Shown one piece after another: positions 37,163 to 64,000 of a stretch of DNA of 64,000 nucleotides. Source of the stretch: Kitasatospora herbaricolor (GTDB lineage Bacteria; Actinomycetota; Actinomycetes; Streptomycetales; Streptomycetaceae); assembly GCF_030813695.1 (NCBI RefSeq), contig NZ_JAUSVA010000002.1, positions 8,889,501-8,953,500 of the forward strand, given 5' to 3'. Made by a program: the position numbers and the translations under genes. Under the pieces are notes generated by a model. That model was not told the origin of the DNA and made no database searches. It was given only the letters and a program-made list of their open reading frames with translations. Positions within the stretch are counted from its first letter, which is position 1, and every line of letters begins with the position of its first letter.

Positions 37163-37206
37163 GGCGTGGTGACGGCGCGGCTGCTGGGTCGCGCGGTCAC
37201 CACGCC
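37163..37206 (+). terminator. Hairpin between the small protein and hypA
   Basis: GGCGTGGTGAC (37163-37173) pairs perfectly with GTCACCACGCC (37196-37206), with a further inner GC stem. It is 57 bases after the small gene and 77 before hypA, so it may attenuate or process the transcript between structural and hyp genes. Confidence 0.55.
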
Positions 37207-37282
37207 TTGTAATGGGCCCGGACGAAGGCGCCGGCCCCACGGCAGGCGCCCACTGCGGCGACCACGCGCGGGAAGAAGGCCG

Positions 37283-37663
37283 ATGCACGAGATGTCGATC
37301 GCGATGGCCGTGGTGGAACAGGTCGAGGAGGCCGTCGGCCAGGCCGGGGCCGGCGCCGTCGAGGCGGTCCACCTGGAGGTCGGCGAACTGGCCGGGGTCG
37401 TTCCGGAGGCCCTCGCCTTCTGCTTCGAACTCGTCTGCGCCGGAACGGTCCTGGAGGGCGCCGAGCTGGTCACCGAGACGGTGCCCGGCCGGGCCCGCTG
37501 CGGGCCGTGCTCCGCCGAGTGGGCGGTGGGCATGCCGCCGGACCTGCTCTGCCCGCAGTGCGGCGGGGCCCGGGCGGAACTGCTGGCCGGGCGCGAACTC
37601 CGGATCACCGCCGTGCGCCGGGCCGACGGCCCGGCCTACGCCCCGGCCCACCAGGAAGGCTGA
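37283..37663 (+). CDS. hypA: Hydrogenase nickel chaperone HypA
   Basis: This protein of 126 residues delivers nickel to the large subunit. The N terminus MHEMSIAMAVVEQ contains the nickel-binding His2, and the zinc-binding pairs are CGPC and CPQC (about residues 74-77 and 94-97). The helical face EAVHLEVGELAGVVPEALAF is conserved. ATG at 37283 has GGAAGAAGG upstream. HypA works with HypB, which follows directly. It is separated from the structural operon by a hairpin. Confidence 0.93.
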   Translation: MHEMSIAMAVVEQVEEAVGQAGAGAVEAVHLEVGELAGVVPEALAFCFELVCAGTVLEGAELVTETVPGRARCGPCSAEWAVGMPPDLLCPQCGGARAELLAGRELRITAVRRADGPAYAPAHQEG

Positions 37664-37667
37664 AGCC

Positions 37668-38516
37668 ATGTGCCGAGTCGTCGATCTGCAGCAGGCCGTG
37701 CTCGCCAAGAACGACCGCAGCGCGCAGGACCTCCGGGCCGAACTCGCGGCGCGCGGGGCGATCGCGGTCAACCTGCTGTCCAGTCCGGGGAGCGGGAAGA
37801 CCGCCCTGCTGGAGAGCGAACTCACGATCGCGCGTGAGCGCGGCGTCCCGGTGGCGGCGCTCACCGCCGACCTCGCGACCGAGAACGACGCCACCCGGCT
37901 CGCCCGTTCAGGGGTGCCGGTCAAGCAGGTGCTCACCGACGGGCTGTGCCACCTGGAGGCGTCGATGCTCGGCCGGCAGCTGGCCGGCTGGCTGCCGGAG
38001 GCCACCGCGCTGCTCTTCGTCGAGAACGTCGGCAACCTGGTCTGCCCGGCCTCCTACGACCTCGGGGAGTCGCTCCGGGTCGCACTGGCCGCCGTCACCG
38101 AGGGCGAGGACAAGCCGCTCAAGTACCCGACCGCCTTCGGGCTGGCGAACCTGGTCGTGGTGACGAAGACCGACATCGCCGCCGCGGTGGAGTTCGACGA
38201 GGCGGCCTTCCGGGCCAACGTCCAGCGGGTCAATCCGGGAGTGGAGATCCTCCTCACCTCGGCCCGCACCGGCGCCGGCCGGGGCGAGCTGCTCGACCGG
38301 GCGCTGGCCGTCCGCGCGGGCGGGCCGGTGCACCTTCCGGTGATGGCCCGTCAGGCGGCGACCGCCGGGCACACCCACGGGACCGGTGACGGCCACGCGC
38401 ACGGGCACGACCACTCGCACGGGCATGAGCTCGGGCACGACCACCCGCACGACCACCCGCACGGGCACAGCCGCGGGCACAGCCACGCGCACCTGCCCGC
38501 CGGAGAGCGGTCTTGA
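37668..38516 (+). CDS. hypB: Hydrogenase nickel GTPase HypB with C-terminal His-rich tail
   Basis: This protein of 282 residues is the GTPase that drives nickel insertion with HypA. Walker A is LLSSPGSGKTALLESEL (about 37-53), with ALTADLATENDA, CHLEASM, LFVENVGNLVCPASYDLGE (metal-binding Cys) and VVTKTDIAAAV (specificity loop). The last 45 residues hold about 17 His in HG/HD/HS pairs (AHGHDHSHGHELGHDHPHDH). In most HypB proteins a His-rich stretch is N-terminal; here the N terminus is short and the tail carries it. It could store nickel. ATG at 37668 is followed by a 4-base TTGA overlap with hypF. Confidence 0.93.
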   Translation: MCRVVDLQQAVLAKNDRSAQDLRAELAARGAIAVNLLSSPGSGKTALLESELTIARERGVPVAALTADLATENDATRLARSGVPVKQVLTDGLCHLEASMLGRQLAGWLPEATALLFVENVGNLVCPASYDLGESLRVALAAVTEGEDKPLKYPTAFGLANLVVVTKTDIAAAVEFDEAAFRANVQRVNPGVEILLTSARTGAGRGELLDRALAVRAGGPVHLPVMARQAATAGHTHGTGDGHAHGHDHSHGHELGHDHPHDHPHGHSRGHSHAHLPAGERS

Positions 38517-40882: not shown

Positions 40883-40932
40883 ACGGCGGGTGAGCAGTTC
40901 GACCGGCCGCGGAGCAAGTGAAGGAGAGCCGG

Positions 40933-41229
40933 ATGTGCCTGGCAGTACCCGGAAGGGTTGTGGAGATCGAGGAGCGGGACGGTACCCGGATGGCCGTCGT
41001 CGACTTCGGCGGCGTGGTCAAGGACGTGTGCCTGGAGTACCTGCCGGACCTGGCGGTGGGTGAGTACGCCATCGTCCACGTCGGTTTCGCCCTGCAGCGG
41101 CTGGACGAGGAATCGGCCCGCAAGACGCTGGAGCTGTTCAACGAACTCGGCCTGCTGCAGGAGGAGTTCGGTGACCCGTGGGAGGCGGCCGCGGGCGCGG
41201 GTGCCGCCGCGAAGGAGGTGCAGCAGTGA
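40933..41229 (+). CDS. hypC: Hydrogenase assembly chaperone HypC
   Basis: This protein of 98 residues shuttles Fe(CN)2CO between HypD and the large-subunit precursor. [17 protein letters not shown] includes the essential Cys2, and [34 protein letters not shown] are typical. The C-terminal 20 residues are an Ala-rich extension. ATG at 40933 follows AAGGAGAG. Its stop overlaps the hypD start. Confidence 0.94.
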
Positions 41230-42380
41230 AGTACCTGGAGGAGTTCCGGGATCCGGAGCTGGCCCGCCGGCTGCTGGACGACATCCGCGCCACGGTGACC
41301 AGGCCGTGGGCGCTGATGGAGGTCTGCGGCGGGCAGACGCACACCATCATCCGGCACGGAATCGACCAACTCCTGCCGGAAGGCGTCGAGTTGATCCACG
41401 GACCGGGCTGCCCGGTGTGCGTGACGCCGCTGGAGGTGATCGACAAGGCGCTGGAGATCGCCTCCCGGCCCGGCGTGATCTTCTGCTCCTTCGGCGACAT
41501 GCTGCGGGTGCCCGGCACCGACCGCGACCTCTTCCGGGTGCGCGGCGAGGGCGGGGACGTCCGGGTGGTGTACTCGCCGCTGGACGCGCTGCGGATCGCC
41601 CAGCAGAACCCGGACCGCGAGGTGGTCTTCTTCGGCATCGGCTTCGAGACCACCGCGCCGCCCAACGCGATGACCGTGTACCAGGCGCGCAAGCTGGGGA
41701 TCCGCAACTTCAGCCTGCTGGTCTCGCACGTACGGGTGCCACCCGCCATCGAGGCCATCATGACCTCGCCGGACTGCCGGGTCCAGGGCTTCCTGGCGGC
41801 CGGCCACGTCTGCAGCGTGATGGGCGTGGACGAGTACCCGGAACTGGCCGAGCGGCACCGGGTGCCGATCGTGGTGACCGGCTTCGAACCGCTCGACATC
41901 CTGGAGGGGATCCGCCGCACCGTAAGGCAGTTGGAGCGCGGCGAGCACACCGTCGAGAACGCCTACCAGCGGGCGGTGCGGCCCGAGGGCAACCCCGCCG
42001 CCAAGGCCATGCTGGCGGACGTCTTCGAGGTCACCGACCGTGCCTGGCGCGGCATCGGGGTCATCCCGCAGAGCGGGTGGCGGCTGTCGCCGCGCTACCG
42101 CGACCAGGACGCCGAGCACCGCTTCCAGGTCTCCGGCATCACCACCGTCGAGCCGGCCGAGTGCCGCAGCGGCGAAGTCCTCCAAGGCCTGCTGAAGCCG
42201 AACCAGTGCGAGGCATTCGGCACCACCTGCACCCCGCGCAACCCGCTCGGCGCCACCATGGTCTCCAGCGAGGGCGCCTGCGCGGCCTACTACCTCTACC
42301 GGCGGCTCGGCCTGCCGGCCGCACCCCCGCCGGCCAGGTCGCTGCCGGTCGTCCCGCTGGAGGCGAGCCCCGTTGCCTGA
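41226..42380 (+). CDS. hypD: Hydrogenase formation protein HypD
   Basis: This protein of 384 residues binds a [4Fe-4S] cluster and, with HypC, assembles the Fe(CN)2CO unit. Signatures are [15 protein letters not shown] (about 32-47), [50 protein letters not shown] and C-terminal [20 protein letters not shown] with cluster cysteines. GTG at 41226 overlaps the hypC stop (GTGA). A TTG start of hypE overlaps its end. Length and motifs are normal. Confidence 0.94.
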
Positions 42381-43458
42381 CACCACGACCACCGTTCCCG
42401 CCCCGGCGGCGCCCGACTTCGCCAACTGGAGCTGTCCGCTGCCGCTGCGGGACCACCCGCGGGTGGTGATGGGCCACGGCGGCGGCGGGGCGATGTCCGC
42501 CGAACTCGTCGAGCACGTCTTCGCCCCCGCCTTCGGCGGACCGCTGCTGGCCTCGCTCGGCGACTCGGCGGCGCTCACCCTCGGCGGCGCCCGACTGGCT
42601 TTCTCGACCGACTCGTTCGTCGTCCGGCCGCTGTTCTTCCCCGGCGGCAGCATCGGCGACCTCGCGGTCAACGGCACTGTCAACGACCTGGCCATGAGCG
42701 GAGCCCGGCCGGCCTACCTGTCCTGCGCCTTCATCCTGGAGGAGGGCGTGGAGATGTCGTTGGTCGCCCGGGTCGCCCAGGCGCTCGGCGAGGCCGCCCG
42801 GCGGGCCGGCGTCGAGGTGGTGACCGGCGACACCAAGGTGGTCGAGGCCGGCCACGGGGACGGGATCTACCTCAACACCGCCGGGATCGGGCTGATCCCC
42901 GCCGGCGTGGACATCCGCGCGCAGCGGGCCGCGCCGGGCGACGTGGTGATCGTCAGCGGCGACATCGGCGTGCACGGCGTCGCGGTGATGAGCGTGCGCG
43001 AGGGGCTGGAGTTCGGCGTCCGGATCGAGAGCGACTGCGCGGCCCTGGGCGGGCTGGTGGAGGCGATGCTCGCGGTCACCCCCGACCTGCACGTGCTGCG
43101 CGACCCGACCCGGGGCGGGCTCGGCGCGGCGCTCAACGAGATCGCCGTCGCGGCCGGCGTCGGCGTGCTGGTCCAGGAGCGCGCCGTCCCGGTGCCGGAC
43201 GAGGTGGCCAACGCCTGCGCCGTCCTCGGCCTGGACCCGATGTACGTCGCCAACGAGGGCAAGCTGGTGGCCTTCGTCCCGCGTGAACACGCCGAGGCCG
43301 TCCTGGCGGCGATGCGGGCCCACCCGCTCGGCGCCCGGGCGGCCGTGATCGGGGAGTGTGTCGCCGACCACCCCGGGATGGTGGTCGCGCGGACCGGGCT
43401 CGGCGGCACCCGGGTGGTGGACCTGCCGATCGGGGAGCAGCTGCCCAGGATCTGCTGA
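42373..43458 (+). CDS. hypE: Carbamoyl dehydratase HypE
   Basis: This protein of 361 residues dehydrates the HypF-delivered carbamoyl on its C-terminal Cys to thiocyanate, which becomes cyanide on iron. It has the AIR-synthase-like [54 protein letters not shown] and [15 protein letters not shown] blocks and ends in LPRIC, the essential terminus. TTG at 42373 overlaps hypD by 8 bases. It ends the hydrogenase gene run; a strong hairpin follows. Confidence 0.94.
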
Positions 43459-48743: not shown

Positions 48744-50069
48744 ATGGACGGCGGTCAGCCGGTGTCGAGTTTTGGCGAGTTGCTCAAGGTACGGCGGGAG
48801 CGTGTCGGGCTGACCCAGCAGGGTCTGGCGGACCACGCGACGCTGAGCGTGCGGGCGATCCGCGACATGGAGACGGGACGCGTCCACCGTCCCCGGCACG
48901 AGACCGTCCGGCTGCTCGCCGACGCGCTGCGGCTGGAGGGGCGGAGCAGGGCCGCCTTCGAGGCGGCCGCCCGGCAGCAGGCGCCGGTGGAGGAACCCGT
49001 CGCACCGCCGGCCGCCCGCAACGCGATCGTCGGCCGGAGCACCGAGGCCGAGGTGCTGGCCGACGTCCTCACCGTGCACGGCGACCGGCTGGTGTCGGTG
49101 GTCGGTCTGGGCGGAGTGGGCAAGACCCGGCTGGCCCTGGAGGTGGCCCGGCGGCTGCACGAGTCGGTGCGCTGGGCGGTGCGCTGGGTGGCCTGCGGCG
49201 AGCGGGAGCCCGGCGGCCCGGGCGCGGCCTTCGCCGACCTGGTGGGCCGGCCCGGCCGGGCCGAGGGGCTCGCCGAGCAGATCGGCGACCGGCCCACCCT
49301 GCTGGTGCTCGACGGCGCCGACGGCGGCGTCAACGCCCCCACCCTCGACGACCTCTTCCACCGCTGCGCCGGACTGCGGGTGCTGATCACCTCCCGGGTG
49401 CCCCAGGGACTTGACGGCGAGCAGGTGATCCCGCTCGCGCCGCTGGAGACCCCGGCCCCCGAACTGGACGACGACCCGCAGCGGCTGGCCGAGGTCGGGG
49501 CGGTGCGCCTGCTGCTGTCGCACGTGCGCCGGGTGCGGCCCGGGTTCCGGCTCGGCCGGGAGGAGGGCGCGGCGGTCGGCGCGCTCTGCCGCTACCTGGA
49601 CGGCCTGCCCGGCGCCCTGGAACTCGCGGCCGGCTGGACCCTGGTCCAGTCGCCCGGCCAGCTGATGGCCCGGTTGTGCGGCAACCCCTTCACCCTCAGC
49701 TCGCCGTCCCCGCTCTGCCACGAGCGGGAGGACGTCCGCGACGCGCTCACCGGCGCCCTGCACCTGCTGAGCCCCCGTCAGCGCGCCCTGCTGGGCCTGC
49801 TGGCCGACGGTGAGCAGGGGTGGACGGTGGAGGAGGCGGTGGCGCTGAGCGGCCGGCCCGTCCAGGAATGCCTGGCCGTGGTGCACGAGCTGCTCTCCCG
49901 CGGGCTGGTACGGACGGTGGGCGGCGGCCAGGGCGGGGTCCGGTTCGCGGTGCTGAACCTCTTCCGGGTGCTGTGCCGGGAGGAGCGGGAGAACTGGCTG
50001 TCGGCGGCGGCCGCCCGCAGCGAGGAGCGTTCGGGGCCGTACCCCCTGCTGGAGGCCCTCGCCGGGTGA
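48744..50069 (+). CDS. XRE-type regulator with NB-ARC/STAND ATPase domain
   Basis: This protein of 441 residues has an N-terminal Cro/C1 helix-turn-helix (FGELLKVRRERVGLTQQGLA, RAIRDMETGRVHRPRHETV, about 8-75) and a STAND/NB-ARC ATPase (about 95-380) with Walker A VVGLGGVGKTRLALEVARRL, Walker B TLLVLDGADGG, VLITSRVPQGL and LDGLPGALELAAGWTLV. The TPR sensor normally at the end of AfsR/SARP-type STAND proteins is absent; only a short C-terminal winged-helix-like part is present. ATG at 48744 follows GGAAAGGGGGG. Its position at the start of the NRPS locus suggests a pathway regulator. Confidence 0.82.
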   Translation: MDGGQPVSSFGELLKVRRERVGLTQQGLADHATLSVRAIRDMETGRVHRPRHETVRLLADALRLEGRSRAAFEAAARQQAPVEEPVAPPAARNAIVGRSTEAEVLADVLTVHGDRLVSVVGLGGVGKTRLALEVARRLHESVRWAVRWVACGEREPGGPGAAFADLVGRPGRAEGLAEQIGDRPTLLVLDGADGGVNAPTLDDLFHRCAGLRVLITSRVPQGLDGEQVIPLAPLETPAPELDDDPQRLAEVGAVRLLLSHVRRVRPGFRLGREEGAAVGALCRYLDGLPGALELAAGWTLVQSPGQLMARLCGNPFTLSSPSPLCHEREDVRDALTGALHLLSPRQRALLGLLADGEQGWTVEEAVALSGRPVQECLAVVHELLSRGLVRTVGGGQGGVRFAVLNLFRVLCREERENWLSAAAARSEERSGPYPLLEALAG

Positions 50070-50332
50070 GGCCGGGCCGGCGCCGGCGACGGTGGCCGCG
50101 GGGACGGGGAGCGGGGGCGCGGGCGGACGCCGCGCGCCGGCGGCCCCCGACCGCGGCCCCGCCGGCCGCCCGGCCCCTCCCCAGGTGATCTGCCGATGTG
50201 CTGCCGGGTGATCTGCCGGTCGGCACGGAACACGGTCAATAAGCTTTTCGTCAGGGCAGGCGGAGGAATTCGCCCGGGAATCGACGCGGATCGTCGGTCG
50301 ACGTTGGCCCACTATGTGACGAGGGGCAGTCC

Positions 50333-50776
50333 GTGGAGCGTGGAAAGGCCGGAAAAGCCGGACTGAATGTCGTGGTGACCACCATGGTCTCCGATTCGCA
50401 CACCTGGAATCTGGTGTTTCTCCAGCTGCTGCTGGAAGAACTCGGCCACCGGGTGACGAATCTGGGCCCGTGCGTCCCGGACGACGTCATCACCGCCGAA
50501 TGCCGGCGGCGCCGACCCGACCTGGTCGTCCTCAGCAGCGTCAACGGGCACGGATACAACGACGGCCTGCGGGTCATCGCCGGGCTGCGCGCCTGCCCGG
50601 AGCTGCGCGGCACGCCGATCGTCATCGGCGGGAAGCTGGGCATCGCGGGGGCGGAGGACGGCGCCCGCGCCCGGACCCTGCTCGCGGCCGGCTTCGACGC
50701 GGTCTTCGAGGAGGCCGCCTCGGTGGACGCCTTCCGCTCCTACGTCCGCTCGCTGCCGGCCGGAGTGCTGTTGTGA
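50333..50776 (+). CDS. B12-binding glutamate mutase S-subunit-like protein
   Basis: This protein of 147 residues is a cobalamin-binding domain: VVTTMVSDSHTWNLVFLQLL contains the axial His of the D-x-H motif (D-S-H-T-W-N; the usual final Gly is Asn), then VVLSSVNGHG and IVIGGKLGI. It corresponds to the small subunit of methylaspartate (glutamate) mutase, which with coenzyme B12 converts L-glutamate to (2S,3S)-3-methylaspartate. GTG at 50333 follows GAGGGG. Its stop overlaps the large-subunit start (GTGA). Paired mutase genes like this supply 3-methylaspartate in streptolydigin biosynthesis (SlgE1/SlgE2). Confidence 0.82.
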   Translation: MERGKAGKAGLNVVVTTMVSDSHTWNLVFLQLLLEELGHRVTNLGPCVPDDVITAECRRRRPDLVVLSSVNGHGYNDGLRVIAGLRACPELRGTPIVIGGKLGIAGAEDGARARTLLAAGFDAVFEEAASVDAFRSYVRSLPAGVLL

Positions 50777-52053
50777 CGGCGTTCGGGCCGTTCGTGGCCG
50801 GCGCCCGGGCGGCGGGCGCGCTGGTGGTGCAACCACGGATGGGGATGAGCGAGCCCGACCGGATGCGGGCCGGCCTGCTCGCCACCAGGAACGCGGCCGC
50901 CACCACCGTCGGCACCGTCACCCTGGACAGCTACACCCGCACCGGCGAGCTGGCCGCGGCCCGCCGGGCCGTCGCCGAGGGCGTCCCGCTCAACGGCTAC
51001 CCGATCACCAGCTACCCGCCCGGGGTCACCCGGTCCGTGCTGCACGGCGTCGCCGACGACAGCTTCCCGGTCCAGGTCCGGCACGGCTCGGCCCGCCCCG
51101 AGAAGATCTTCGCGGCGCTGCTCGCCGCCGGCCTGCACGCCACCGAGGGCGGCCCCGTCTCGTACTGCCTGCCGTACAGCCGCACCCCGCTGCCCGAGGC
51201 CGTCGACAGCTGGAGACGCTGCTGCGAGCTGCTGGCCGCCTCCCGGACGGCCGGCGCCGAACCGCACCTGGAGACCTTCGGCGGCTGCATGATGGGCCAG
51301 CTCTGCCCGCCCGGCCTGCTGATCGCGCTCAGCGTGCTGGAGGGCCTCTTCTTCCGGCAGCACGGGCTGCGCAGCATCTCGCTCAGCTACGCCCAGCAGG
51401 CCAGCACCCGCCAGGACGAGGAGGCGGTGACGGCCCTGCAGGCGATCGCCGCCGAGCTGCTCCCGGACGTGGACCGGCACGTGGTGATCTACACGTACAT
51501 GGGCGTCTACCCGCTGTCGCCGGGCGGCGCGCAGCTGCTGCTGGACGAGGCGGCCCGGCTCGCCGTCCGGACCGGCGCGGCCCGGCTGATCGTGAAGACC
51601 ACCGCCGAGGCGTACCGCATCCCCACCGTCGGGGAGAACGTCCGGGCGCTGGAGAGCGCGGCCGCCGTCGCCGCGGGTGAGCGGCGCAGCCCGCCGGGTG
51701 CAGCCCCCGACACCGGGATCCGCGCCGAGGCCCGGCACCTGATCGACGCCGTCCTCGACCTGCACCCGGACATCGGCCGCGCGCTGGTGCTGGCCTTCGC
51801 CAAGGGCTACCTGGACGTCCCGTACTGCCTGCATCCCGACAACGCCGGCCGCGCCCGCAGCAGGCTCGACCCCGACGGTCGGCTGCACTGGTCGGACCCC
51901 GGGTCGATGCCGATCGGCCGGGCCGGCCGCGCCCGTTCCGCCCCCGCGCTCAGCTCCACCGAACTGCTCGGTGCGCTGTCGTACGTACAACGCACCTACG
52001 ACCGGCGGGCGTTCCGTACCCCGGTCGCGGGCGGGATCCACGTCGCCCGCTGA
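50773..52053 (+). CDS. Glutamate mutase E-subunit-like protein
   Basis: This protein of 426 residues matches the catalytic TIM-barrel subunit of methylaspartate mutase: MRAGLLATRNAAATTVGTVT, DSYTRTGELAAARRAVAEG, LNGYPITSYPPGVTRSVLHG, QVRHGSARPEKIFAALLAAG (substrate arginine and acidic residues), EGGPVSYCLPYSRTPL and IVKTTAEAYRIPTVGENV. It is shorter than the usual 480 residues, mainly in the C-terminal part. GTG at 50773 overlaps the S-subunit stop, so a stoichiometric complex is likely. It should rearrange L-glutamate to 3-methylaspartate with the S subunit and B12. Confidence 0.82.
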   Translation: MTAFGPFVAGARAAGALVVQPRMGMSEPDRMRAGLLATRNAAATTVGTVTLDSYTRTGELAAARRAVAEGVPLNGYPITSYPPGVTRSVLHGVADDSFPVQVRHGSARPEKIFAALLAAGLHATEGGPVSYCLPYSRTPLPEAVDSWRRCCELLAASRTAGAEPHLETFGGCMMGQLCPPGLLIALSVLEGLFFRQHGLRSISLSYAQQASTRQDEEAVTALQAIAAELLPDVDRHVVIYTYMGVYPLSPGGAQLLLDEAARLAVRTGAARLIVKTTAEAYRIPTVGENVRALESAAAVAAGERRSPPGAAPDTGIRAEARHLIDAVLDLHPDIGRALVLAFAKGYLDVPYCLHPDNAGRARSRLDPDGRLHWSDPGSMPIGRAGRARSAPALSSTELLGALSYVQRTYDRRAFRTPVAGGIHVAR

Positions 52054-52222
52054 GCCCGCCGGTCGCCCGCCGCGCTTTCCCGGGTACTCCACCGCGCTCC
52101 TCCGGAGCGTTCCACCGCGCTGCACCCGCGCATTCCACCCGTGCACGCCTTCGCGCACTTCTTCGCGCACCTCTTCGTGCGATCCACCGGCACCGCGCCA
52201 CGACAAGGATGGGAACGGCACC

Positions 52223-53224
52223 ATGACCGTGCAGACCGCGCAAGGGCCCACGCCGCCGGCCGACCCCGGCAGGCACCTGGCGTCCCCGACCACGCGCAGC
52301 GCGCTGCGCATCCAGCACCACCTGCTCGGCGCCGCGCGGGAGTTCCTGCGCGGGGAGGGCTTCACCGAACTGCTGCCGCCGGTCATCGGGCCGGTCACCG
52401 ACCCGGGCGCCCGGGGCTCCAAGCAGGTGGACATCGACTTCTACGGCCACCGCTACAAGCTGATGACCAGCGCCATCCTCTACAAGCAGGCCTCCCTGCT
52501 GGCCTTCGACAAGATCTTCTGCGTGGCCCCGAACGTCCGGCTGGAACCCCTGGAGACGGCCGGCACCAACCGCCACCTGGTCGAGTTCCACCAGCTGGAC
52601 GTCGAGGTCGCCGGCGCCTCCCGGGAGCAGATCACCGCACTGGTCGAGCAGTTGGTCGTGCACATGGTGCGCAGCACCGTCGCCGCGCTGCCCGCCGAGT
52701 TCGAGGAGCTCGGCCGGGACACCGACGCCTTCCACGGCCTGCTCCAGGGCGCCTTCGAGCGGGTCCGGCACAGCGACGCCGTGCTCGACCTCCGGGCGGC
52801 CGGGCACGACCAGAACCCCGACGCCGAACTCGACTGGGAGGGCGAGGCGCTGCTCTCCGCCAAGGCCGGCCGCCCGTTCTTCGTCACCGACTACCCCAAG
52901 GGCTCGCGCGGCTTCTACGACCGTGAGTGCCCCGGCGAGCCCGGCCTGCTGCGGAACTTCGACCTCATCGCGCCCGAGGGCTACGGCGAACTGTGCAGCG
53001 GCAGCGAACGGACCAACGAGTACGCCGACATCATCACCCGGATGCGGGAGACCGGCGAGAACCCGCAGAAGTACCGCTGGTACCTCGACCTGGTCCGCGA
53101 GGGCATCCCCGCCAGCGCCGGCTTCGGCATCGGCGTGGAGCGCCTGACCCGGTACGTCGCCGGCCTGGACGCCGTCTGGCAGGCCAGCGCCTACCCCAAG
53201 CTCGCCGGGGTGGTCTCGCCGTGA
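52223..53224 (+). CDS. Asparaginyl-tRNA-synthetase-like amide ligase
   Basis: This protein of 333 residues is a class II synthetase catalytic core without an N-terminal anticodon-binding domain. Motif 2 is NVRLEPLETAGTNRHLVEFH (about 105-126), with ELDWEGEALLS, FFVTDYPKGSRGFYDRE, and motif 3 AGFGIGVERLTRYVAGL (about 295-311). It resembles the archaeal AsnRS-paralogue asparagine synthetase (AS-AR), which makes asparagine from aspartate, ammonia and ATP, rather than a translation enzyme. In this cluster the likely substrate is 3-methylaspartate, giving 3-methylasparagine, which is inference. ATG at 52223 is chosen. The stop overlaps the next start (GTGA). Confidence 0.75.
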   Translation: MTVQTAQGPTPPADPGRHLASPTTRSALRIQHHLLGAAREFLRGEGFTELLPPVIGPVTDPGARGSKQVDIDFYGHRYKLMTSAILYKQASLLAFDKIFCVAPNVRLEPLETAGTNRHLVEFHQLDVEVAGASREQITALVEQLVVHMVRSTVAALPAEFEELGRDTDAFHGLLQGAFERVRHSDAVLDLRAAGHDQNPDAELDWEGEALLSAKAGRPFFVTDYPKGSRGFYDRECPGEPGLLRNFDLIAPEGYGELCSGSERTNEYADIITRMRETGENPQKYRWYLDLVREGIPASAGFGIGVERLTRYVAGLDAVWQASAYPKLAGVVSP

Positions 53225-54489
53225 GCGACCTCGCCGCACCCGGGTTCCCCGAGGAGGCCGTCCGCCTGCGGGCCAGGACCGGCGCCGCCGCCGCCTTCCC
53301 GCCCGCCGGGGACTACGGGCAGGTGCTGTTCGGCGCCGGGCCGGACGGGCCGGACGGCCTCGGCGGCCCGCCCGACCGGCTGGACGCACTGCGCCTGACC
53401 CCGCCGGTGTTCATGGAGCAGCGGCTGGCCAAGCTCATCGACCTCGGCCGCGAACCCACCTACCAGGACGTCGACCTGTCGACCACGATCGGCGGCCTGC
53501 GCTCCACCGCGCCGGTCTACGTCTCGGCGCTCGGCTCGACCCGCGCCGCCGGCGGTGACCTCGGGCTGGCGCTCAGCCGGCAGGCCGGGGCGCTCGGCAT
53601 CCCGATGGTGATCGGGGAGAACGTCGTCCCGGTGAACGGCTACGGCCGCCTCGGCGAGGCGGCGGGGCGCTCGCTGCTCGGCCGCCTCACCGCCTACACC
53701 GAGCGACTCGCCGACGGCGTCGGCGGGGTCGCGGTGCAGCAGAGCACCGAGGACGCCGACGCCGAGGTCTGGAACCTCGTGCACAGCGACCCGGCCGCCC
53801 GGCCGCTGCTCGACTCCGGCCGCCTCGCCTTCGAGCTGAAGGTCGGCCAGGGCGCGAAGCCAGGCCTCGGCGGGATGACCGTGCTGGACGCGGCCGCGGC
53901 CGCCCGGGTGGCGGACCGCTACGGTCTGGACCCGCTCTTCGAGGGGCAGCGGGTGCTGCGCTCCAGCAGCCCCGGCACGTTCACCGAGGAGATCCTGCGC
54001 CAGCAGGTCCGGCTGATGCGCAACAACTTCCCCCGGGTGCGGATCTGGGTGAAGCTCCATCCGGGCCGGGACGTCGCGGCGGCCGTGCGGACGGCCGTCG
54101 AGGCCGGCGCGGACGCGGTGACCGTGGACGGCGCCGAGGGCGGCACCGGCTGGGCGCCCGCGGCCTTCCCCCGGCACGTCGGGCTGCCGCTCGCCGAGTG
54201 CCTGCGCCGGCTCGGCGCCCTCCCGTCCGGCCCGCCGCCCGGCCGGCTGCTGGTCTCGGGCCGGATGTGGGAGGGCAGCCGGGCGGTGAAGAGCCTGGCG
54301 CTGGGCGCCACGGCGGTCGGCCTCGGCCGCGCGGCCCTGCTCGCGGTCGCCGAGGACCCGCAGGACGGCCTGGTCCGCCTGGTGGAATGCCTCGGCACCG
54401 AGATGCGGCTGCTGATCAGCTCGCTCGGCAAGTACGCGCCGGGCACGCTCGGGCCGGAGGACGTGTGGTCCCCCGCCGAGGAGAACTGA
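53221..54489 (+). CDS. Stand-alone glutamate synthase FMN-domain protein
   Basis: This protein of 422 residues is the TIM-barrel FMN domain of the glutamate synthase family: APVYVSALGSTRAAG, FELKVGQGAKPGLGGM (about 200-215), and ADAVTVDGAEGGTGWAP (about 298-314). The glutaminase domain and the Cys motif of the [3Fe-4S] cluster (CHxxTCPVG in normal enzymes) are absent. Ferredoxin-dependent glutamate synthase-like SlgE3 supports glutamate supply in the streptolydigin pathway beside its mutase, and this gene may play the same role, or transfer an amino group to another 2-oxo acid. GTG at 53221 overlaps the AsnRS-like stop. Confidence 0.75.
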   Translation: MSDLAAPGFPEEAVRLRARTGAAAAFPPAGDYGQVLFGAGPDGPDGLGGPPDRLDALRLTPPVFMEQRLAKLIDLGREPTYQDVDLSTTIGGLRSTAPVYVSALGSTRAAGGDLGLALSRQAGALGIPMVIGENVVPVNGYGRLGEAAGRSLLGRLTAYTERLADGVGGVAVQQSTEDADAEVWNLVHSDPAARPLLDSGRLAFELKVGQGAKPGLGGMTVLDAAAAARVADRYGLDPLFEGQRVLRSSSPGTFTEEILRQQVRLMRNNFPRVRIWVKLHPGRDVAAAVRTAVEAGADAVTVDGAEGGTGWAPAAFPRHVGLPLAECLRRLGALPSGPPPGRLLVSGRMWEGSRAVKSLALGATAVGLGRAALLAVAEDPQDGLVRLVECLGTEMRLLISSLGKYAPGTLGPEDVWSPAEEN

Positions 54490-54793
54490 CTCCCGCACCG
54501 GAGCGCGCTACAAGGCACCGACGGAACGCGGTACCCGAACACCCGCAACGCGGTACCCGGAGCACCTGCGAGGCGGGACCCGAACGCCCGCAACGCGGTA
54601 CCCGGAGCACCTGCGAGGCGGTACCCGAACACCCGCAACGCGGTACCCGGAGCACCTGCGAGCGGTACCTGAAAGTCCCGCAGCGGCAGCGCCGAGTCCT
54701 GCCGTGATCCCTTCTCCTGTCCCGCCGGTCCGGCGGACAGTCGCGCCCGGCCCACGGCGGCCCGGCATCGCCGTCACCAAGCATCGGGGTTGA
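54490..54793. other. Intergenic region with repeat, NRPS leader
   Basis: About 300 bases between the glutamate synthase-like gene and the first NRPS. Half of it is the 45-base repeat; the rest shows no gene. It may hold a promoter for the NRPS genes. Confidence 0.5.
54526..54682. repeat. 45-base tandem repeat before the NRPS gene
   Basis: Three full 45-base units (54526-54570, 54571-54615, 54616-54660) and a partial fourth. Each unit is a 22-base half (ACGCGGTACCCGAACACCCG) and a 23-base half (ACGCGGTACCCGGAGCACCT) that resemble one another, so the repeat is nested. Each half contains GCGGTACC. The only gene-like frame is antisense and low complexity. Confidence 0.85.
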
Positions 54794-57700
54794 ATGATGT
54801 CCTCCAGCGAATTCCCGTTCCTCCCGGCGGCCCGCCGCCACCCGTCCCGTCCGGCGGTCCGCCGGGCCGGCCGAACGGTCACCTACCGCGAGCTGGACGA
54901 GCTGAGCGGCGCGCTCGCCGGGGAGATCGCCCGGGAGACCGCCCCGGGCCAGGTCGTCGCCGTCACCGCCGACGACCGGTTCGACCACCTGGTCGGGATG
55001 CTGGCCGTGCTCCGGGCCGGCCGGGTCCACCTCCCGCTCGACCCGCAGGCACCCGAGGAGCGGAACCGGGCGATCCTGGACGGGGCCGGCGCGGCCGCCG
55101 TCCTGACGGGCGGCCGGCTCACCGTCCGCCCGGGCGCCGCGGCCGGCACCGCCGGCCCGGCCGGGTACGTGATCCACACCTCCGGCACCACCGGCACCCC
55201 CAAGGGCGTCCTCGTTTCGCTGGACGCCCTGACCGGGCACCTCCACGCCATCGTGGCCCGGTTCGGGCTGACCGAGGACGACGTGGTGCTGCAGTTCGCC
55301 CGGCCCACCGTGGACGTGGCGATCGAACAGATCCTCGGCGCACTGGCGGCCGGGGCCTGCCTGGTCCTGCCGGAGCGCCAACTGCTCACCCCGGCCGAGC
55401 TGCTCGACCTGCTGGACGCCGAAGGCGTGACCGTCGCCAACCTGTCCGCCGGCTACTTCCAGGAGCTGGTCGCCGCACTGCCCGGGCGCGCCGCGCCGGG
55501 CACCCTGCGGCTGATGATCTCCGGCAGCGACCGGCTGCACCCGGCCACCGCGGCCGGCTGGCACCGGCTCACCGGGGTACCCCTGCTGAACGCCTACGGT
55601 CCCACCGAGACGGTGATCACCGCGACCGTCCACACCGCGACCGTCCACACCGCCGCCGGCGACAACACCGCCGCCGTCGTGCCGATCGGCGAGGCCCTCG
55701 GCGGGCGCACCCTGCACATCCTCGACGAACGGCTGCGCCCCTGCCCGCCCGGCACCGCCGGCGAGCTGTACATCGGCGGCCCGCTGCTCGCCTGGGGCTA
55801 CTGCGGCCGGCCCGGGCCGAGCGCCGAACGCTTCGTCGCCGACCCCTGGTCCGCCGCCCCCGGCGCCCGGATGTACCGCACCGGGGACCTCGTCCGGCGG
55901 CCGCACGAGGGAGCTCCGCCCGAGTACCTGGGCCGGGCCGACCAGCAGGTGAAGATCCGCGGCTTCCGGGTCGAGCCCGGCGAGATCGAGGTCGCCCTGG
56001 CCGGCTGCCCGGGCGTCGCCGGCTGCGCCGTGGCCGCCCACGAGGGCCGGCTCGCCGCCTACGTCACCGCCTCGGACACCGCGCCCGTCCCCGACTACGC
56101 CCGGGCCCGGGCCTTCCTGGCCGGCCGGCTGCCCGAGCACATGATCCCCGCGACGCTCACCGTGCTGGCCGGGTTCCCGCTGACGGCCGGCGGCAAGGTC
56201 GACCGCGCCGCGCTGCCGGCGCCGGAGGCCGCCGAGTCCCGCCGCCCCGGCCACCGCCCGCCGCGCACCGCGGCCGAGCAGCTGATCGCCGCCGTCTGGT
56301 CCGACGTGCTCGGCGTCGCCGAGGTCGGCGCCGACGACAACTTCTTCCACCTCGGCGGGGACTCGCTGACCGCCGTCCGGGTGGTCGGCCGGGTCTACGA
56401 GGTGTTCGGCATGGTGTCGCCGTACACCATCTTCGACGCGCCGACCCTCGCCGAGTTCGCCGCCGCCGTCACCGCCTCCGCCGGCCCCGAGCAGCCGCCG
56501 CTGACCGCCCGCGGCCTCACCCGGGCACCGCTGTCCAAGTACCAGCGCGGGCTCTGGTTCCTGGAGCAGTGGAACCCCGGCGCGGCCACCTACAACGTGC
56601 CCTGGGTTTTCCGCTTCCACGGCCCGGTCGAGACCGAACTGCTGCGCGCCGCCCTGGAGACGGTGGTCGCCCGGCACCAGAGCCTGCGGACCACCTTCGT
56701 CCTCGGCGAGGACGGCCCCGAGCAACTCGTCCATGAGCGGATCGAGTTGCCCTTCACCGTCCTGGACAGCCCGGCGGAGCAGCCCGACGCGCTGGTCGCC
56801 GAACTGGCCCGGGAACCCTTCGACCTGGAGCACGGGCCGCTGGTGCGCGCCCACGCCGTCCGCACCCCCGACGGCGCGACCACCCTGCTGCTGATGTTCC
56901 ACCACATCGTCTGGGACGAGGGCTCGCTGCCCGTCCTGGAGCAGGAACTCCAGGAGCTGTACGCGGCGCTGCGCGAGGGACGCGACCACGTCCTGCCCGA
57001 ACTCCCCGTCCAGTACACCGACTACAGCGCCTGGCAGTACGAGGACGAGAACGCCGAGGAGCGGCTCGCCCACTGGCGCACCGCGCTCGCCGACGCCCCG
57101 CAGACCCCGGTGCTGCCCACCGACCACCCCCGCCCCGAGATCCAGGCCTTCCGCGGCGCCTTCCACCGCTTCGCGCTGCCGACCCCGGTCGCCCGCGCGG
57201 TGCGCGAGTTCGCCCGCAGCGAGGACGCCACCCCGTTCATGGTGCTGCTGGCCGGCCTGGCGCTGACCCTGCACCGCCGCTCCGGCCAGCGGGACATGGT
57301 CCTCGGCACCCCGGTGAGCCTGCGCGGACGCACCGAACTGAACGGCCTGATCGGCTACTTCATCAACCTGCTGCCGCTGCGCCTGCGGCTCGCCGAGGAC
57401 GCGGACTTCCGTGAACTCGTCCAGCACGTCCGCGAGGTGGCGATCGGTGCCTACCGGCACCAGGACACCCCCTTCGACGAGATCACCGCACTCGTCCTGG
57501 ACGACCGGCCGGAGGACCGCAACCCGCTCTGCCAGGTGCTGCTCGAACTGCACCCGCTGGACACCCGGCCGCTCACCGTCGGGGAGAGCGAGGTCACCCG
57601 TGCCCTGCACTCCAACGAGGTGTCCCGGTTCGACCTGTCGATCTCCGTCGACGACCTCGGTACCGGCTTCACCGGGCGCTTCGAGTACGACAGCGACCTG

Positions 57701-59509
57701 TTCGACCCCGAGACCGTCGCCGGCCTCTGCGACAGCTGGGCAAACACCCTGGCCGCCGCCGTCGACCCCGCCGCGCACACCCTCTTCGAGGCCCGGGCCG
57801 AACTCGCCCCGCAGGCCACCGCCGTGGTCGAGGGCGACACCGGGCTGGCGCTGACCTACGGGGAGCTGAACACCCGGGCCAACCGGCTCGGGCACTTCCT
57901 GGCCGGCCGCGGGGTCGGCCGGGGTGACGTCGTCGCGATCCTGACCGAACGCGGCCACGATCTGGTGGTGGCGCTGCTCGCGGTGCTGAAGACCGGCGCC
58001 GGCTACACCCTGCTCGACCCGGACTTCCCCGCCGAGCGGCTGGCCGGTGCCGTCGCGGACAGCGGCGCCGCGCTGGTCCTCACCCACCGCCACGCCCCCG
58101 CGCCGTTCGAGGGCACCGCCCACCTCGACCTCGACGAGGTGGCCGGGGAGGTGGCCCGCTGCCCGGGGCAGGACCTCGCGCTCCCGGTCACCGGCGACGA
58201 CCTGGCCTGCGTGATGTTCACCTCCGGCTCCACCGGCCGCCCCAAGGGCGTCGCGGCCCCGCACCGGGCGCTCACCACCACCTACCTCGGCCAGGACTAC
58301 GCCCGCTTCGGCCCCGAGGAGGTCTGGTTGCAGTGCTCGCCGGTCTCCTGGGACGCCTTCGCGCTGGAACTGTACGGCGCCCTGCTGTTCGGCGGCACCT
58401 GCGTGCTGCAGCCCGGCCGGCGGCCCGACCCGGAGACCATCGCCACCCTCACCCGGCGCCACCGGGTCACCCAGCTCCAGCTCTCCGCCAGCCTGTTCAA
58501 CTTCCTGCTGGAGGAGTTCCCGCAGACCTTCGACCACCTCAAGGTGGCCTTCACCGCCGGCGAGCGGGCCTCGGTGACCCATGTCGCCAAGGCCCTGGAG
58601 AACCACCCGCGGCTGGTGGTCGCGAACGGCTACGGGCCGGTGGAGAGCCTCGGCCTGACCACCTGCCACCAGGTCGGCCCGCAGGACCTCGGCGGTACCT
58701 CGATCCCCATCGGCCACCCGCTGAACGGCAAGGAGATCCACGTCCTGGACGCCGCACTGCGCCCGGTCGGCCCCGGTGAGAGCGGCGAACTCTATGCCGC
58801 CGGGGGCGGGTTGGCGTACGGCTACCTGGGCCGGCCGGCCCTCACCGCGGGCCGCTTCGTCGCCCACCCGTACGGCCGGCCGGGGGAGCGGCTCTACCGC
58901 ACCGGGGACCTCGGGCACCGCACCGAGGACGGCACGCTGGAGATCACCGGACGGATCGACGACCAGATCAAGATCCGCGGGTTCCGGGTCGAACCGGGTG
59001 AGATCGAGGACGCCCTGACCAGCCACCCGCTGGTCCGGGAGGCCGCCGTCACCGTCCACGAACCGGCCCCCGGGGACAAGCGGCTGGCCGCCTACATCAC
59101 CGCCGGACCCACCCCGCCCGACATCGACGCCCTGCTCGCCGAACTGGGCGGCCGGCTCCCCGAGTACATGATCCCCGCCACCGTCGACATCCTCGACGCC
59201 CTGCCGCTCAACCCCAACGGCAAGACCGACCGCCGGGCGCTGCCCGCCCCGGCGCCCCGGCCGGCACCGGGCCCGGCGGCCGCCGCGCTGGACGGGATGG
59301 AACTGCTGGTGGCCGACGCCGTCCGAGCCGTCCTTGACCTGCCGCAGGTCGGCCGGGACGACAACTTCTTCCGGATCGGGGGCAACTCGCTGGCCGCCGT
59401 CCGGGTCGCGATGCGGCTCTCCCGGGAGACCGGTACCAAGGTGGCGCCGCACGTGGTGTTCCGGGCGAAGACCGTCGGCGCGATCGCCGAACGGCTCACG
59501 GCCCGGTGA
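54794..59509 (+). CDS. NRPS, A-T-C-A-T (initiation plus one extension module)
   Basis: This protein of 1571 residues holds adenylation A1 (about 5-480: [39 protein letters not shown]), thiolation T1 with [12 protein letters not shown] (Ser about 525), condensation C (about 560-985) with [14 protein letters not shown], where the last residue of HHxxxDG is Glu, adenylation A2 (about 990-1470: [37 protein letters not shown]) and T2 with [12 protein letters not shown]. With no N-terminal C domain it should start a peptide. No epimerase, methyltransferase or thioesterase is present. By-eye binding-pocket residues are D-V-E-N-M-S-A-I-T for A1 and D-A-L-Q-F-A-G-G-L for A2; neither is a code I can name. 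ATG at 54794 or 54797. Confidence 0.9.
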
Positions 59510-59633
59510 CCGCCCGCCCCCGCTCCGCCGGCGGCCGCCACCTCGGTGCGCGACCCGGATCCGGCCCCAGCCCTACCACCCGCCCGCGCCCCCGCCGGGT
59601 CCGCCGGGTCCGCCCAAGGAAGGAAACAGGACA

Positions 59634-62600
59634 GTGACCTCCACCGAAGAGCCGGCCCGGGTCGCCCCCGTGTCGGGGCTGCAGAGGGGCCTGTGGTTCC
59701 TCGACCGCTGGAACCCCGGAGCGGCCACCTACAACATCCCCTGGGTGTTCGAGTTCACCGGCGCCCTCGACCTGGTGCGACTGGAGAGCGCCCTGGGCGC
59801 CCTGGTGGCCCGGCACGAAGCCCTGCGCACCATCTTCGCCCTGCACGAGGACGGCCCGCGCCAGCACGTCCGGCACAGCCCGGCCGTCCCCTTCACGGTG
59901 ACCGACCTGCGGGCCCTCGACGAGCGGGAGAGCGCCCGGCGCGCCGAGGAGCTGATCGCCGCCGAGGCGGCCGCACCCTTCGACCTCGAACAGGGCCCCC
60001 TGCTGCGGGCGTCGGTGCTCCGCACCGGGGAGCAGCGGGCCACCATGGCCGTGGTCGTCCACCACATCGTCTGGGACGGCTGGTCGGCCGACGTCTTCGA
60101 GCGAGAGCTGGCCGAGCTCTACAGTGCCGCCGTGGCCGGCCGCGCGGCCGAACTCCCGGTGCTCACCACCCAGTACGCCGACTACGCGGCCGAGGAGCAG
60201 GCGCAGTCCTTCGAGGAGCACCTGGCCCACTGGAAGCTCCAGCTCGACGGGGCACCGGGCCTGCTGGAGATCCCCGGCGACCGCCCGCGCCCCGCCCACC
60301 GGAGCCACCACGGCGCCACCGAGCCGTTCGCCCTGGAGCCGGGCACCGCCGCCCGGGTCAAGCACCTGGCGGAGGAGGAGGGCGTCACCCCGTTCATGGT
60401 CATGCTGGCCGCCTTCGCGCTGCTGCTGCACCGCTGGACCGGCGCCGAGGACATGGTGATCGGCACCCCCGTCACCACCCGCAACCGCCCCGAACTGGAG
60501 AACCTGGTCGGCTACTTCGTCAACCTGCTGCCGCTGCGGGTCCGGCTCGCCCGGACGATGACCTTCCGCGAGCTGCTGGAGCACGTCCAGGAGGTCGCCT
60601 TCGAGGGCTACGCCTACCTGGACGTCCCCTTCGACCAGCTGGTCGACCGGCTGGCACCGGACCGCTCGGCCCAGCACGCCCCGCTGGTCCAGGTGGTGTT
60701 CGGCGCGCACGCCGAGGACGCCGCCGCGCTGCGCTTCGGCGAGGCCCTCGCCGAGCGGGCCGTCCGCTCCAACGGCACCAGCAAGTTCGACCTGACCTGG
60801 TCCGTCTTCGACAGCGGCGAGCTGCGCGGCGAGGCCGAGTACCGCACCGACCTGTTCGACCCGGCGACGGTCCGCCGGATGGCCGCCGACTGGCAGACCT
60901 TGCTGACCGCCGCCCTCGACCACCTGGACCGCCCGCTGCGCGAGCTCGGCACCCCCGCGAGCGCCGGCCGGCCCGCCCGGATCCCGCAGGGCCGCTGCCT
61001 GCACCAGCTCTTCGAGGACGCAGCCGACCGCCACGGCGAGCGGACCGCCCTCACCGACGGGGCCCGCGCGCTCACCTACACCGATCTGGACGAGCGCGCC
61101 AACCGCCTCGCCCACGCGCTGACCGCCGCCGGCGTCCGCCGCGGCGACCGGGTCGGCCTGCTGCTCGACCGGACCGCCGACATCGTGGTGAGCGTCCTCG
61201 CCGTCCTCAAGGCCGGCGCCGCCTACGTCCCCGTCGACCCGGCCGCACCGGCCGGCCGCGCGGCCACCGTGTTCGGCGACACCGGCGTCACCCTCGTCCT
61301 CACCGACCTGCCCGACCGGGTGCCGGAAGGCCCCTGGCTGCGCCACGACCTCGCCGCCCGGGCCGCGGAGACCGCCACGATGCCCGCCACCCGCCCGCGG
61401 GCCGGCGCCCGCCCCGGCGACACCGCCTACGTGATCTTCACCTCCGGCTCCACCGGCCGTCCCAAGGGCGTCGCGATCGCCCACGAGCACGTCAGCCGCC
61501 TGATGGCGGCCGGCGCCGAACACTTCGGCTTCGGCCCGCAGGACGCCTGGACGCTCTTCCACAGCTACGCCTTCGACTGGACGGTCTGGGAGATCTGGGG
61601 CGCCCTGCACCACGGCGCCCGGCTGGTCGTGGTGCCCTACCTGACCAGCCGCTCGCCCGAGGAGTTCGCCCAACTGCTGGACGAGGAGGGCGTGTCCCAC
61701 CTCTGCCTCACCCCGTCCGCGCTGCGCCAGCTGGAACCGGCCCTGCGCCGGCGCCCGAGGCCGCTGCCCGCGCTGAAGCAGATCATGCTGGGCGGCGAGG
61801 CCCTCGACCCCGCCGTCGTCCAGCGCTGGCTCGACCTCGATCCGCTGCCGCCGGCCCGGATCTGCAACCTCTACGGGATCACCGAGACCACCGTCCACGT
61901 CACCACTTTCGACATCGCCGGGCCCGGCGCCACCGGCGGGTTCGAGCGCAGCCTGATCGGCGAGGCGATGCCGCACCTCGACGCGCTGGTGCTCGACGAC
62001 TGGCTGCGGCCCTGCCCCGAGGGCGTCCCCGGCGAGCTGTACATCGGCGGCGGCAGCCTCGCCCACGGCTACTGGCAGCGCCCCGGCCTCAGCGCCGCCC
62101 GGTTCGTCGCCGACCCCTACGCCGGCGTCCCCGGCGCCCGGATGTACCGCACCGGGGACGTCGCCAAGCGGCTGCCGGGCGGCGGCCTGGAGTACGTCGG
62201 CCGTGCCGACTTTCAGGTGAAACTGCGCGGCTTCCGGATCGAACTCGGCGAGATCGAAAACGCGTTGAGCGCCCACCCGGACGTCGACGCCTGCGTGGTC
62301 ACCGTCCACGACCAGCGCCTCGCCGCCTACCTGACCGGCCGGGCGCCCGAACGGGTCCGCGAGTTCCTGGCCCGCACCCTGCCGGACTACATGATCCCGG
62401 CGAGCGTCACCGTCCTGGACGCCCTGCCGCTGACCGTCAACGGCAAGGTCGACCGGGCCGCCCTGCCGGCCCCCGGCGCCCCCGCGGCGGCCGGTGGGCG
62501 CCACGTACCGCCACGCACCGCCGCCGAGCGGGCCTTCGCCGACGCCTGGTCACGTGTCCTCGGCATCGACGAGGTCGGAGTCCACGACGACTTCTTCCAC

Positions 62601-64000
62601 CTCGGCGGCGACTCCATCCGCGCCGTCCAACTGGCCGGCCACCTGCACGAGGCGGGCTGGACGGTCTCCCTGCGGGACGTCTTCGGCGCCCCCACCGTCT
62701 CCGAACTGCTGCCCCTGGCCCGGCCGGTGACCGCCGCGGCCGCGGCCGACCAGCCCTTCGCCCTGCTCGACCCCGAGGACCGCGCCGCCCTCCCGCCGGG
62801 CCTCTCCGACGCCTACCCGATGGTCTCCATGCAGCTCAGCATGGTCTTCCACATGGAGATCGCCGGCGGCACCGACAGCTACCACAACGTCAACAGCTAC
62901 CGGATCTCGGCCGCCCTGGACGAGACCGCCTTCCGCCGGGCGGTGGCCGAAGTCCTGGACCGGCACCCGGTGTTGCGCACGGGCCTCGACCTGTCCGGCT
63001 ACCGCGAGCCGCTCCAGCTGGTGCACGGCGAACTGCCCGCACCCGTCGAGTTCGCCGACCTGCGCGGCACCGACACCCAGGACGAGGCCGTCCGCGCCGT
63101 CTTCGAGCACCACCGCTCCACCCCCTTCGACCTGATGGAACCGCCGCTGCTGCGGATCACCGTGCAGCGCCTGGCCGACCAGGTCTTCCAGCTCACCCTG
63201 TCCGAGCACCACGCCATCCTGGACGGCTGGAGCTTCACCTCGCTGCTCACCGAACTCCTGGAGCGGCACGCCGAACTGGCCGCCGACCCGGCGAGTCCGC
63301 CCGCACCCGCCCCCCGCTCCGCCTTCCGCGACTTCGTCACGGTCGAACGGGAGGCCGCCGCCGACGCCGACTCGCTCGCCTACTGGCGCGCCAAGCTGGC
63401 CGGTGTCAGCGGTGAACTGTGGCCCGGCAGCAGCGAGGTGCACGAGGTGCCCCGGACCCTGGAGCGGGTGCTCCCGGCGGCGCCCGGCCAGCTGCGGCTG
63501 GTCGCCGACGCGGCCGGCGTCCCGGTCAAGTCGGTCGCGCTCGCCGCCCATCTGCGGGCGCTCCGGGCGATCACCGGGCGGGACCGCGTCACCACCGGCC
63601 TGGCGATGAACGGACGGCTGGAGCGGCGCGGCGGCACCGAGGTGCTGGGGCTCTTCCTCAACACCGTGCCGCTGGTCGGCGAGCCGGTCGACGACGACCC
63701 GCTGGCCCTGGTGCGCGCCGTGCACCGGGAGGAGCTGGAGATGATGCCGCACCGGCGGGTGCCGTTCGCCCGGCTGGCCCGGCTGATGGCCGACACCCGG
63801 CTCGACAGCCAGTTCGGCTACCTGCGCTTCCACGCCCTGGGCACGCTCAGCTCCGCCCGGATCGTGGACGCCCGGATCGGCTGCGAGCCGACCATGCGGC
63901 ACGAACCCAACAGCTTCGCCTTCGGCGCCTCGCTCATCCAGGACCCGGTGTCCGACCGCGTCCTGCTGGCCGTCGACCACCAGCGGTCGGTGGTGCCCGA
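59634..64000 (+). CDS. NRPS, C-A-T-C... (runs off the right edge)
   Basis: At least 1455 residues. C1 begins directly ([19 protein letters not shown]) with [11 protein letters not shown] at about residue 141. Adenylation A1 follows (about 470-930: [52 protein letters not shown]), then T1 with [12 protein letters not shown], and a second C domain with [12 protein letters not shown] near residue 1200, open at 64000. The pocket by eye is D-W-W-C-M-G-L-V-H, not a code I can name. GTG at 59634 has AAGGAAGG upstream and 124 bases separate it from the first NRPS, so they share an operon. Its first C domain is closely similar to that of the preceding protein, so one may derive from the other by duplication. 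Confidence 0.9.

Follow-up and report, generated by a model that had tools for sequence, protein, structure and literature searches.

A glutamate mutase and amidation cassette in a peptide synthetase cluster of Kitasatospora herbaricolor, a likely source of 3-methylasparagine

Which building block is made by a gene cassette in which two glutamate-mutase-like subunits are encoded next to a ligase resembling asparaginyl-tRNA synthetase (AsnRS) and a flavin mononucleotide (FMN) protein, and which step of peptide assembly uses it? We address this question for Kitasatospora herbaricolor, in a window of 64,000 nucleotides that comprises bases 8889501-8953500 of the 9.19 Mb contig NZ_JAUSVA010000002.1 (genome 9.58 Mb). 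The right-hand part of the window carries, as an initial annotation had stated, a STAND regulator, the mutase-like genes mutS and mutE, the AsnRS-like ligase, the FMN protein and two genes of non-ribosomal peptide synthetases (NRPS), N1 and N2, all on one strand. These seven genes are long open reading frames on the plus strand with high coding scores and strong family matches. Our analysis indicates that the cassette most likely makes 3-methylasparagine for the second adenylation (A) domain of N1, called A2 here, in the way of the streptolydigin (Slg) system. Gene content, kept residues, conservation and co-occurrence can be read from the sequences themselves; every reaction and every A-domain substrate named below is inferred from them.

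According to the proposed route, a B12-dependent glutamate mutase composed of MutS and MutE would convert L-glutamate into 3-methylaspartate, the side-chain carboxylate of which would be adenylated by the ligase at the expense of ATP and transferred to ammonia, giving 3-methylasparagine. The FMN protein would work together with the amidation, by acting directly on the amino acid (redox chemistry or C-alpha epimerisation) or by releasing ammonia, and A2 would load 3-methylasparagine as residue 2. Later in the assembly, the last condensation (C) domain of N2 and the synthetase N3, which has a Gln-like code, would act as a split module, the residue of which is probably beta-hydroxylated by a TauD enzyme or a P450, before N4 would add four residues and release the chain.

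Mutase, ligase and the adenylation domain A2

The alignment of MutE with structure 1cb7 of Clostridium cochlearium (chain B) covers 371 residues, and R66, R100, R149, E171, Y177, Y181, K326 and E330, which we take to be the catalytic residues of glutamate mutase, are all kept. This is consistent with the built-in supply of 3-methylaspartate that had been proposed initially. In the cobalamin motif of MutS, DSHTWN, the Asp and His of the consensus DxHxxG are present and the final Gly is replaced by Asn, with DxHxWN found in relatives. Both subunits remain under the cut-offs of the NCBIfam equivalogs (145.7 versus 390.1 bits for TIGR01503 and 32.2 versus 135.8 bits for TIGR01501). We regard mutS and mutE as a divergent branch of secondary metabolism which would work like glutamate mutase, without claiming equivalog membership, and which together would form 3-methylaspartate.

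The ligase (333 aa) consists of the catalytic domain alone, its match starts at residue 123-125 of full-length AsnRS, and an anticodon-binding domain is lacking. It reaches 458.3 bits with NF005052, 'asparagine synthetase A' (cut-off 368), and matches the archaeal AS-AR structures 3p8t and 1nnh as well as AsnRS, while class II motifs 2 and 3 are preserved across an alignment of 22 relatives. To our knowledge, no FMN partner has been described for archaeal AS-AR. The archaeal enzymes likewise possess an AsnRS-derived catalytic domain without anticodon-binding domain and the same class II motifs, but they are distant in sequence and their substrate is plain aspartate. Enzymes of the AS-A/AS-AR type activate free aspartate with ATP and transfer it to ammonia (PMC9437257). 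Amide formation by the AsnRS-like enzyme, another element of the initial annotation, agrees with its place in the asparagine synthetase A family and with the missing tRNA-binding domain, and the ligase would act on 3-methylaspartate.

The probable consumer of the product could be located to A2. Its code, DALQFAGGLK, resembles that of an A domain from the Streptomyces lydicus cassette locus (DALQIGGGFK; 62% identity), and both fall into one starred 42-row clade (98) with members from many cassette clusters. The first A domain of N1 had been considered as counterpart of the S. lydicus domain and was rejected, the 58% match being to the second A domain. Since the tree was drawn from cassette neighbourhoods only and cannot alone test specificity, a genome-wide search was made among 198 genomes. 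A2-like domains (E <= 1e-150) were detected in 17 of the 24 cassette genomes versus 2 of the 174 others (Fisher p 4e-17, kinship uncorrected). In all 15 genomes with both on one contig, the A2-like match lies 3-20 kb from the ligase, and the same is true for genome G066 with a weaker match. The A2 pocket shows Leu 239 and Gln 278 instead of the Thr and Lys of DLTK codes; Gln 278 also occurs in the S. lydicus domain, and there is no Lys. Such a pocket fits a different, amide-bearing side chain, and residue 2 is most likely 3-methylasparagine, so that the predicted use of the building block by the A-T-C-A-T protein (T, thiolation domain) would occur via its second A domain. A domains 53-54% identical to A2 were also seen in the cassette-free genomes G006, G193 and G043, where they may load a related residue that is beta-branched.

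The best-known relative of the cassette is found in streptolydigin biosynthesis, in which SlgE1, SlgE2 and SlgE3 supply 3-methylaspartate and the AsnRS-like SlgZ acts in tetramic acid formation (PMC5357945). Hence, the initial statement that no described cluster combines an AsnRS-like enzyme with a mutase has to be withdrawn. S. lydicus NRRL ISP-5461 (locus L159) encodes homologues of MutS (63% identity), MutE (65%), the ligase (67%) and the FMN protein (65%), adjoining deoxysugar-type genes and an MbtH-A protein that contains the matching A domain, and we infer that this locus is the streptolydigin cluster. The sub-cluster slgE1-slgE2-slgE3-slgZ-slgN1 has the four cassette homologues, the adjacency of ligase and FMN gene and the cognate A domain in common with our locus, where this streptolydigin-type set is likewise complete within one cluster. 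However, streptolydigin itself is a polyketide synthase-NRPS tetramic acid glycoside that involves the N-methyltransferase SlgM and deoxysugar genes, whereas the product here would be a multi-module peptide, and the mutase genes of S. lydicus lie on the strand opposite to the ligase rather than in one operon. With regard to the residue, omnipeptin from a soil-metagenome NRPS cluster was reported as the first bacterial NRPS product with beta-methylasparagine (PMC6710260). The likeness to this 11-residue depsipeptide, which also contains 6-chloro-Trp and beta-hydroxy-Tyr, concerns the residue. In the literature, we found no paper joining 3-methylasparagine with glutamate mutase.

More widely, 57 of 392 Streptomycetales genomes contain a ligase homologue with at least 59% identity, and the cassette also occurs in many named Actinomycetota, mostly beside NRPS genes. 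In the loci inspected, the ligase is nearly always accompanied by the FMN gene and usually by mutS-mutE, in at least five NRPS layouts. In one group (L071, L074, L075, L078), the cassette is followed by a pair resembling 2,3-diaminopropionate synthase (PALP plus OCD/mu-crystallin) and by NRPS domains with DLTK codes. Another arrangement, mutS-mutE-ligase-(permease)-FMN gene with a dimethylargininase-like gene, was observed in Kribbella and one Streptomyces-labelled genome (L103, L104, L111, L122, L152). No NRPS was seen within 10 kb of these five cassettes, the product of which is perhaps a free amino acid.

The FMN protein and competing explanations

The FMN protein (422 aa) was initially thought to make glutamate for the mutase, in line with the description of SlgE3 as ferredoxin-dependent glutamate synthase (PMC5357945). 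Such a function would be consistent with the distant match to PF01645 (Glu_synthase) and with the conserved KxxQGAK motif, present here in the form KxxQGAKPG of glutamate synthase (GltS). The FMN barrel fold of the protein is common to the FMN domain of GltS and type 2 isopentenyl diphosphate (IPP) isomerase (IDI-2). However, only the Glu_synthase/FMN_dh barrel was matched in Pfam, without the N-terminal Ntn glutaminase domain of GltS. Chain residue 1100 of GltS, just ahead of the Fe-S cysteines, is the last one covered by the alignment, and according to cysteine lists the GltS-type Fe-S cysteine cluster is present in none of approximately 115 relatives, the S. lydicus protein included. Furthermore, the loop QGAKPGEGG of GltS is changed to QGAKPG[LIV]GG in the relatives and to QGAKPGLGG here (E to L). 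The structural model (pLDDT 84) places the FMN barrel equally close to IDI-2 and hydroxyacid oxidases; a VIA-align comparison with 2zrw (Z 26.9, root mean square deviation 3.3, 310 residues) was tied with hydroxyacid dehydrogenases. The fold search did not separate IDI-2 from hydroxyacid oxidases, and hence no function is taken from the fold.

The FMN protein and the ligase occur in exactly the same 24 of the 198 genomes, whereas mutE was found in 56, 33 of them without ligase and FMN protein. Linkage in one operon inflates the co-occurrence of FMN protein and ligase, but the contrast with mutE holds regardless. Amycolatopsis antarctica (L137) had appeared as an exception lacking the FMN protein and was rejected as such, because a homologue missed by gene calling directly follows the ligase. 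In G066, ligase and FMN protein share one NRPS locus (L073, 3251-12877), and no mutE was detected in this genome at E <= 10. An A domain with the code DAFHLGAMVK belongs to this locus, and a gene resembling homocitrate synthase lies nearby. The substrate of the G066 pair may be another dicarboxylate. Because the FMN protein co-occurs with the ligase, mutE is found without it and the G066 pair lacks mutE, we place the FMN protein in the amidation branch and not in glutamate supply, and consider a glutamate synthase feeding the mutase quite improbable. The kept KxxQGAK residues suggest that an acidic amino or keto acid is bound at the FMN. Since an electron relay is lacking, candidate functions are C-alpha epimerisation via an imine or an oxidase activity that frees ammonia for the ligase. 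As a tentative proposal, in which our confidence stays somewhat below even, ligase and FMN protein might represent an obligate two-enzyme unit, in which an FMN-dependent, electron-donor-free step is coupled to side-chain amidation, e.g. C-alpha inversion via the imine or a release of ammonia on the spot that would serve the acyl-adenylate. If this is true, SlgE3 would be mis-assigned together with more than 100 similar proteins annotated as 'glutamate synthases'.

A different timing of the amidation also has to be considered, in which the cassette yields 3-methylaspartate, and ligase and FMN protein form a later tailoring pair that amidates the carrier-bound residue or the finished peptide. 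Some cassette clusters indeed contain other A codes, among them the DLTK type that is characteristic of Asp/Asn, and for SlgZ a role in tetramic acid formation has been described jointly with the methyltransferase SlgM, the timing being left unstated (PMC5357945). However, free aspartate is the amidation substrate of AS-A/AS-AR, the nearest characterised family (PMC9437257), and the A2 pocket has Gln at 278 and lacks the Lys of Asp-type codes, which makes late amidation unlikely in our view. Moreover, producers of albomycin, indolmycin and mupirocin carry resistant second copies of aminoacyl-tRNA synthetases (PMC9437257), and by analogy the ligase could be a self-resistance AsnRS and the product an AsnRS inhibitor. 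We rejected this explanation as highly improbable, because the ligase is a catalytic domain alone, belongs to the asparagine synthetase A family and is common to chemically diverse clusters, S. lydicus included. For the assumption that free 3-methylasparagine is made and loaded by A2, some observations are unfavourable. The low mutase scores leave a different dicarboxylic substrate possible. Six of the 24 cassette genomes have no A2-like domain at the thresholds used, so that other A domains must use the cassette product there, and the seventh, G066, has the weaker one. Finally, the order of amidation and loading is deduced and the A-domain specificities are predicted.

Extent and conservation of the cluster

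The cluster is not restricted to the window. With an extension of 39.5 kb to the right, in which genes were called with a codon model, it reaches approximately 85.9 kb in window numbering, i.e. approximately 22 kb past the window, and contains four NRPS genes with eight A domains in total (Table 1). The two NRPS genes announced initially are both present, but their number was an effect of the window edge, and two further NRPS genes and tailoring genes lie beyond. Likewise, the GTGA overlaps said to join most genes are limited to two junctions (50773-50776 and 53221-53224); the other four junctions within the group of the first seven genes are gaps of approximately 263, 169, 304 and 124 bp. The start of mutS was set to the GTG at 50333 instead of 50372 as picked by the gene caller. 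In the 304-bp gap between FMN gene and N1, a 45-bp tandem repeat (3.3 copies, 94% matches) was observed at 54528-54673. A scan of the region from 47.4 to 55 kb detected neither a riboswitch nor another Rfam family, the single weak match being far under the gathering score. Further upstream, at 28104-43458, the window contains a [NiFe]-hydrogenase operon that encodes, among other proteins, the large and the small subunit and the maturation proteins HypF and a HypX-like one, and which resembles those of hydrogen-scavenging soil actinomycetes.

Table 1. Genes and domains of the cluster; positions above 64000 continue the numbering of the window.
Feature	Position	Strand	Basis or remark
Cluster regulator, HTH_31 DNA-binding domain and weak STAND/AAA_16 P-loop NTPase	48744-50069	+	Pfam
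mutS, glutamate mutase sigma (B12-binding) subunit, 147 aa	50333-50776	+	PF02310; DSHTWN motif; 147-aa orthologues
mutE, glutamate mutase epsilon (catalytic) subunit	50773-52053	+	PF06368, E 6.9e-80
AsnRS-like asparagine synthetase (AS-AR/SlgZ type), catalytic domain alone	52223-53224	+	NF005052
FMN barrel protein, GltS/IDI-2/FMN_dh superfamily (SlgE3 type)	53221-54489	+	Glu_synthase/FMN_dh matches
NRPS N1, A-T-C-A-T (modules 1 and 2)	54794-59509	+	Pfam, domain motifs
N1 second A domain (A2), code DALQFAGGLK, predicted substrate 3-methylasparagine	57785-59224	+	
NRPS N2, C-A-T-C, A code DWWCMGLVHK	59634-64088	+	last 88 bases beyond window end 64000
NRPS N3, A-T	64199-66037	+	
Type II thioesterase	66034-66942	+	
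P450	66918-68099	+	
MbtH	68225-68437	+	
TauD-family hydroxylase	68445-69437	+	
NRPS N4, four C-A-T modules and thioesterase	69823-83172	+	
MFS exporter	83177-84454	+	
GNAT gene	84451-85041	+	
Dimethylargininase-like gene	85038-85868	+	
SARP/BTAD regulator, convergent, after cluster	86557-89823		

The order regulator-mutS-mutE-ligase-FMN gene-N1-N2-N3 is kept in seven genomes with retrieved surroundings (G231, G201, G146, G126, G144, G082, G040) and in approximately 15 named genomes, among them S. virginiae NRRL ISP-5094, S. celluloflavus, S. omiyaensis, S. termitum, K. purpeofusca, K. xanthocidica and Actinacidiphila rubida. Because homologues keep the same order in other genomes, a chance arrangement can be excluded. 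Among named relatives, Kitasatospora indigofera JCM 4646 is the closest, with an identical ligase protein and neighbouring proteins of 94-97% identity. In all orthologous clusters, the regulator (54-69% identity) is the leftmost gene and, because the genes upstream vary between genomes, it is taken as the left border of the cluster. Downstream, all seven loci have the P450, MbtH, TauD, N4 and MFS genes; most of them also have the thioesterase and dimethylargininase-like genes, and the GNAT gene was found in none. As the module number of N4 varies among the members, some of which seem to have two instead of four modules, the peptide length may differ within the family. Altogether, the seven genes belong to a conserved actinobacterial NRPS cluster, of which they form the left part and which probably makes a peptide of approximately eight residues. 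No known product of this cluster was found in the literature, MIBiG not being part of the comparison.

The eight A codes read, in order, DVENIGAITK, DALQFAGGLK, DWWCMGLVHK, DAQDFGLVDK (N3), DAYFSGVTFK, DT(E)DMGIVDK, DA(D)EAGLVDK and DAYFGGLTAK, with position 239 of the sixth and seventh code uncertain due to a one-residue gap. The third is presumably Thr-like at best and that of N3 presumably Gln-like. Because the sixth and seventh A domains share a clade (99) with the Gln-like domain and a dimethylargininase-like gene is located beside them, citrulline or arginine are plausible as their residues. The C domain at the end of N2 stands alone and N3 comprises nothing but A and T, so that both probably form one split module. 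A trio of TauD, A-T and thioesterase genes with the same Gln-like code accompanies the cassette also in Lentzea, S. griseocarneus and K. mediocidica, and this recurrence suggests hydroxylation of the residue bound to the A-T protein. Pfam named no epimerisation domain in the NRPS genes, a weak negative because Pfam puts such domains under Condensation.

Significance for peptide discovery in actinomycetes

The cassette itself is already known from streptolydigin. Still of interest are the cluster family, which is conserved in approximately 20 species of Streptomyces and Kitasatospora and for which no product was found, and an FMN enzyme that appears to be mis-assigned in the literature. The co-occurrence data suggest a correction of the annotation: in streptolydigin-type cassettes, glutamate formation is an improbable role for the 'glutamate synthase', so that a widespread enzyme family would need a new functional assignment. 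Moreover, the cassette, present in approximately one of seven Streptomycetales genomes, would be a portable genetic marker for the rare residue 3-methylasparagine, which could be used to prioritise peptide clusters.

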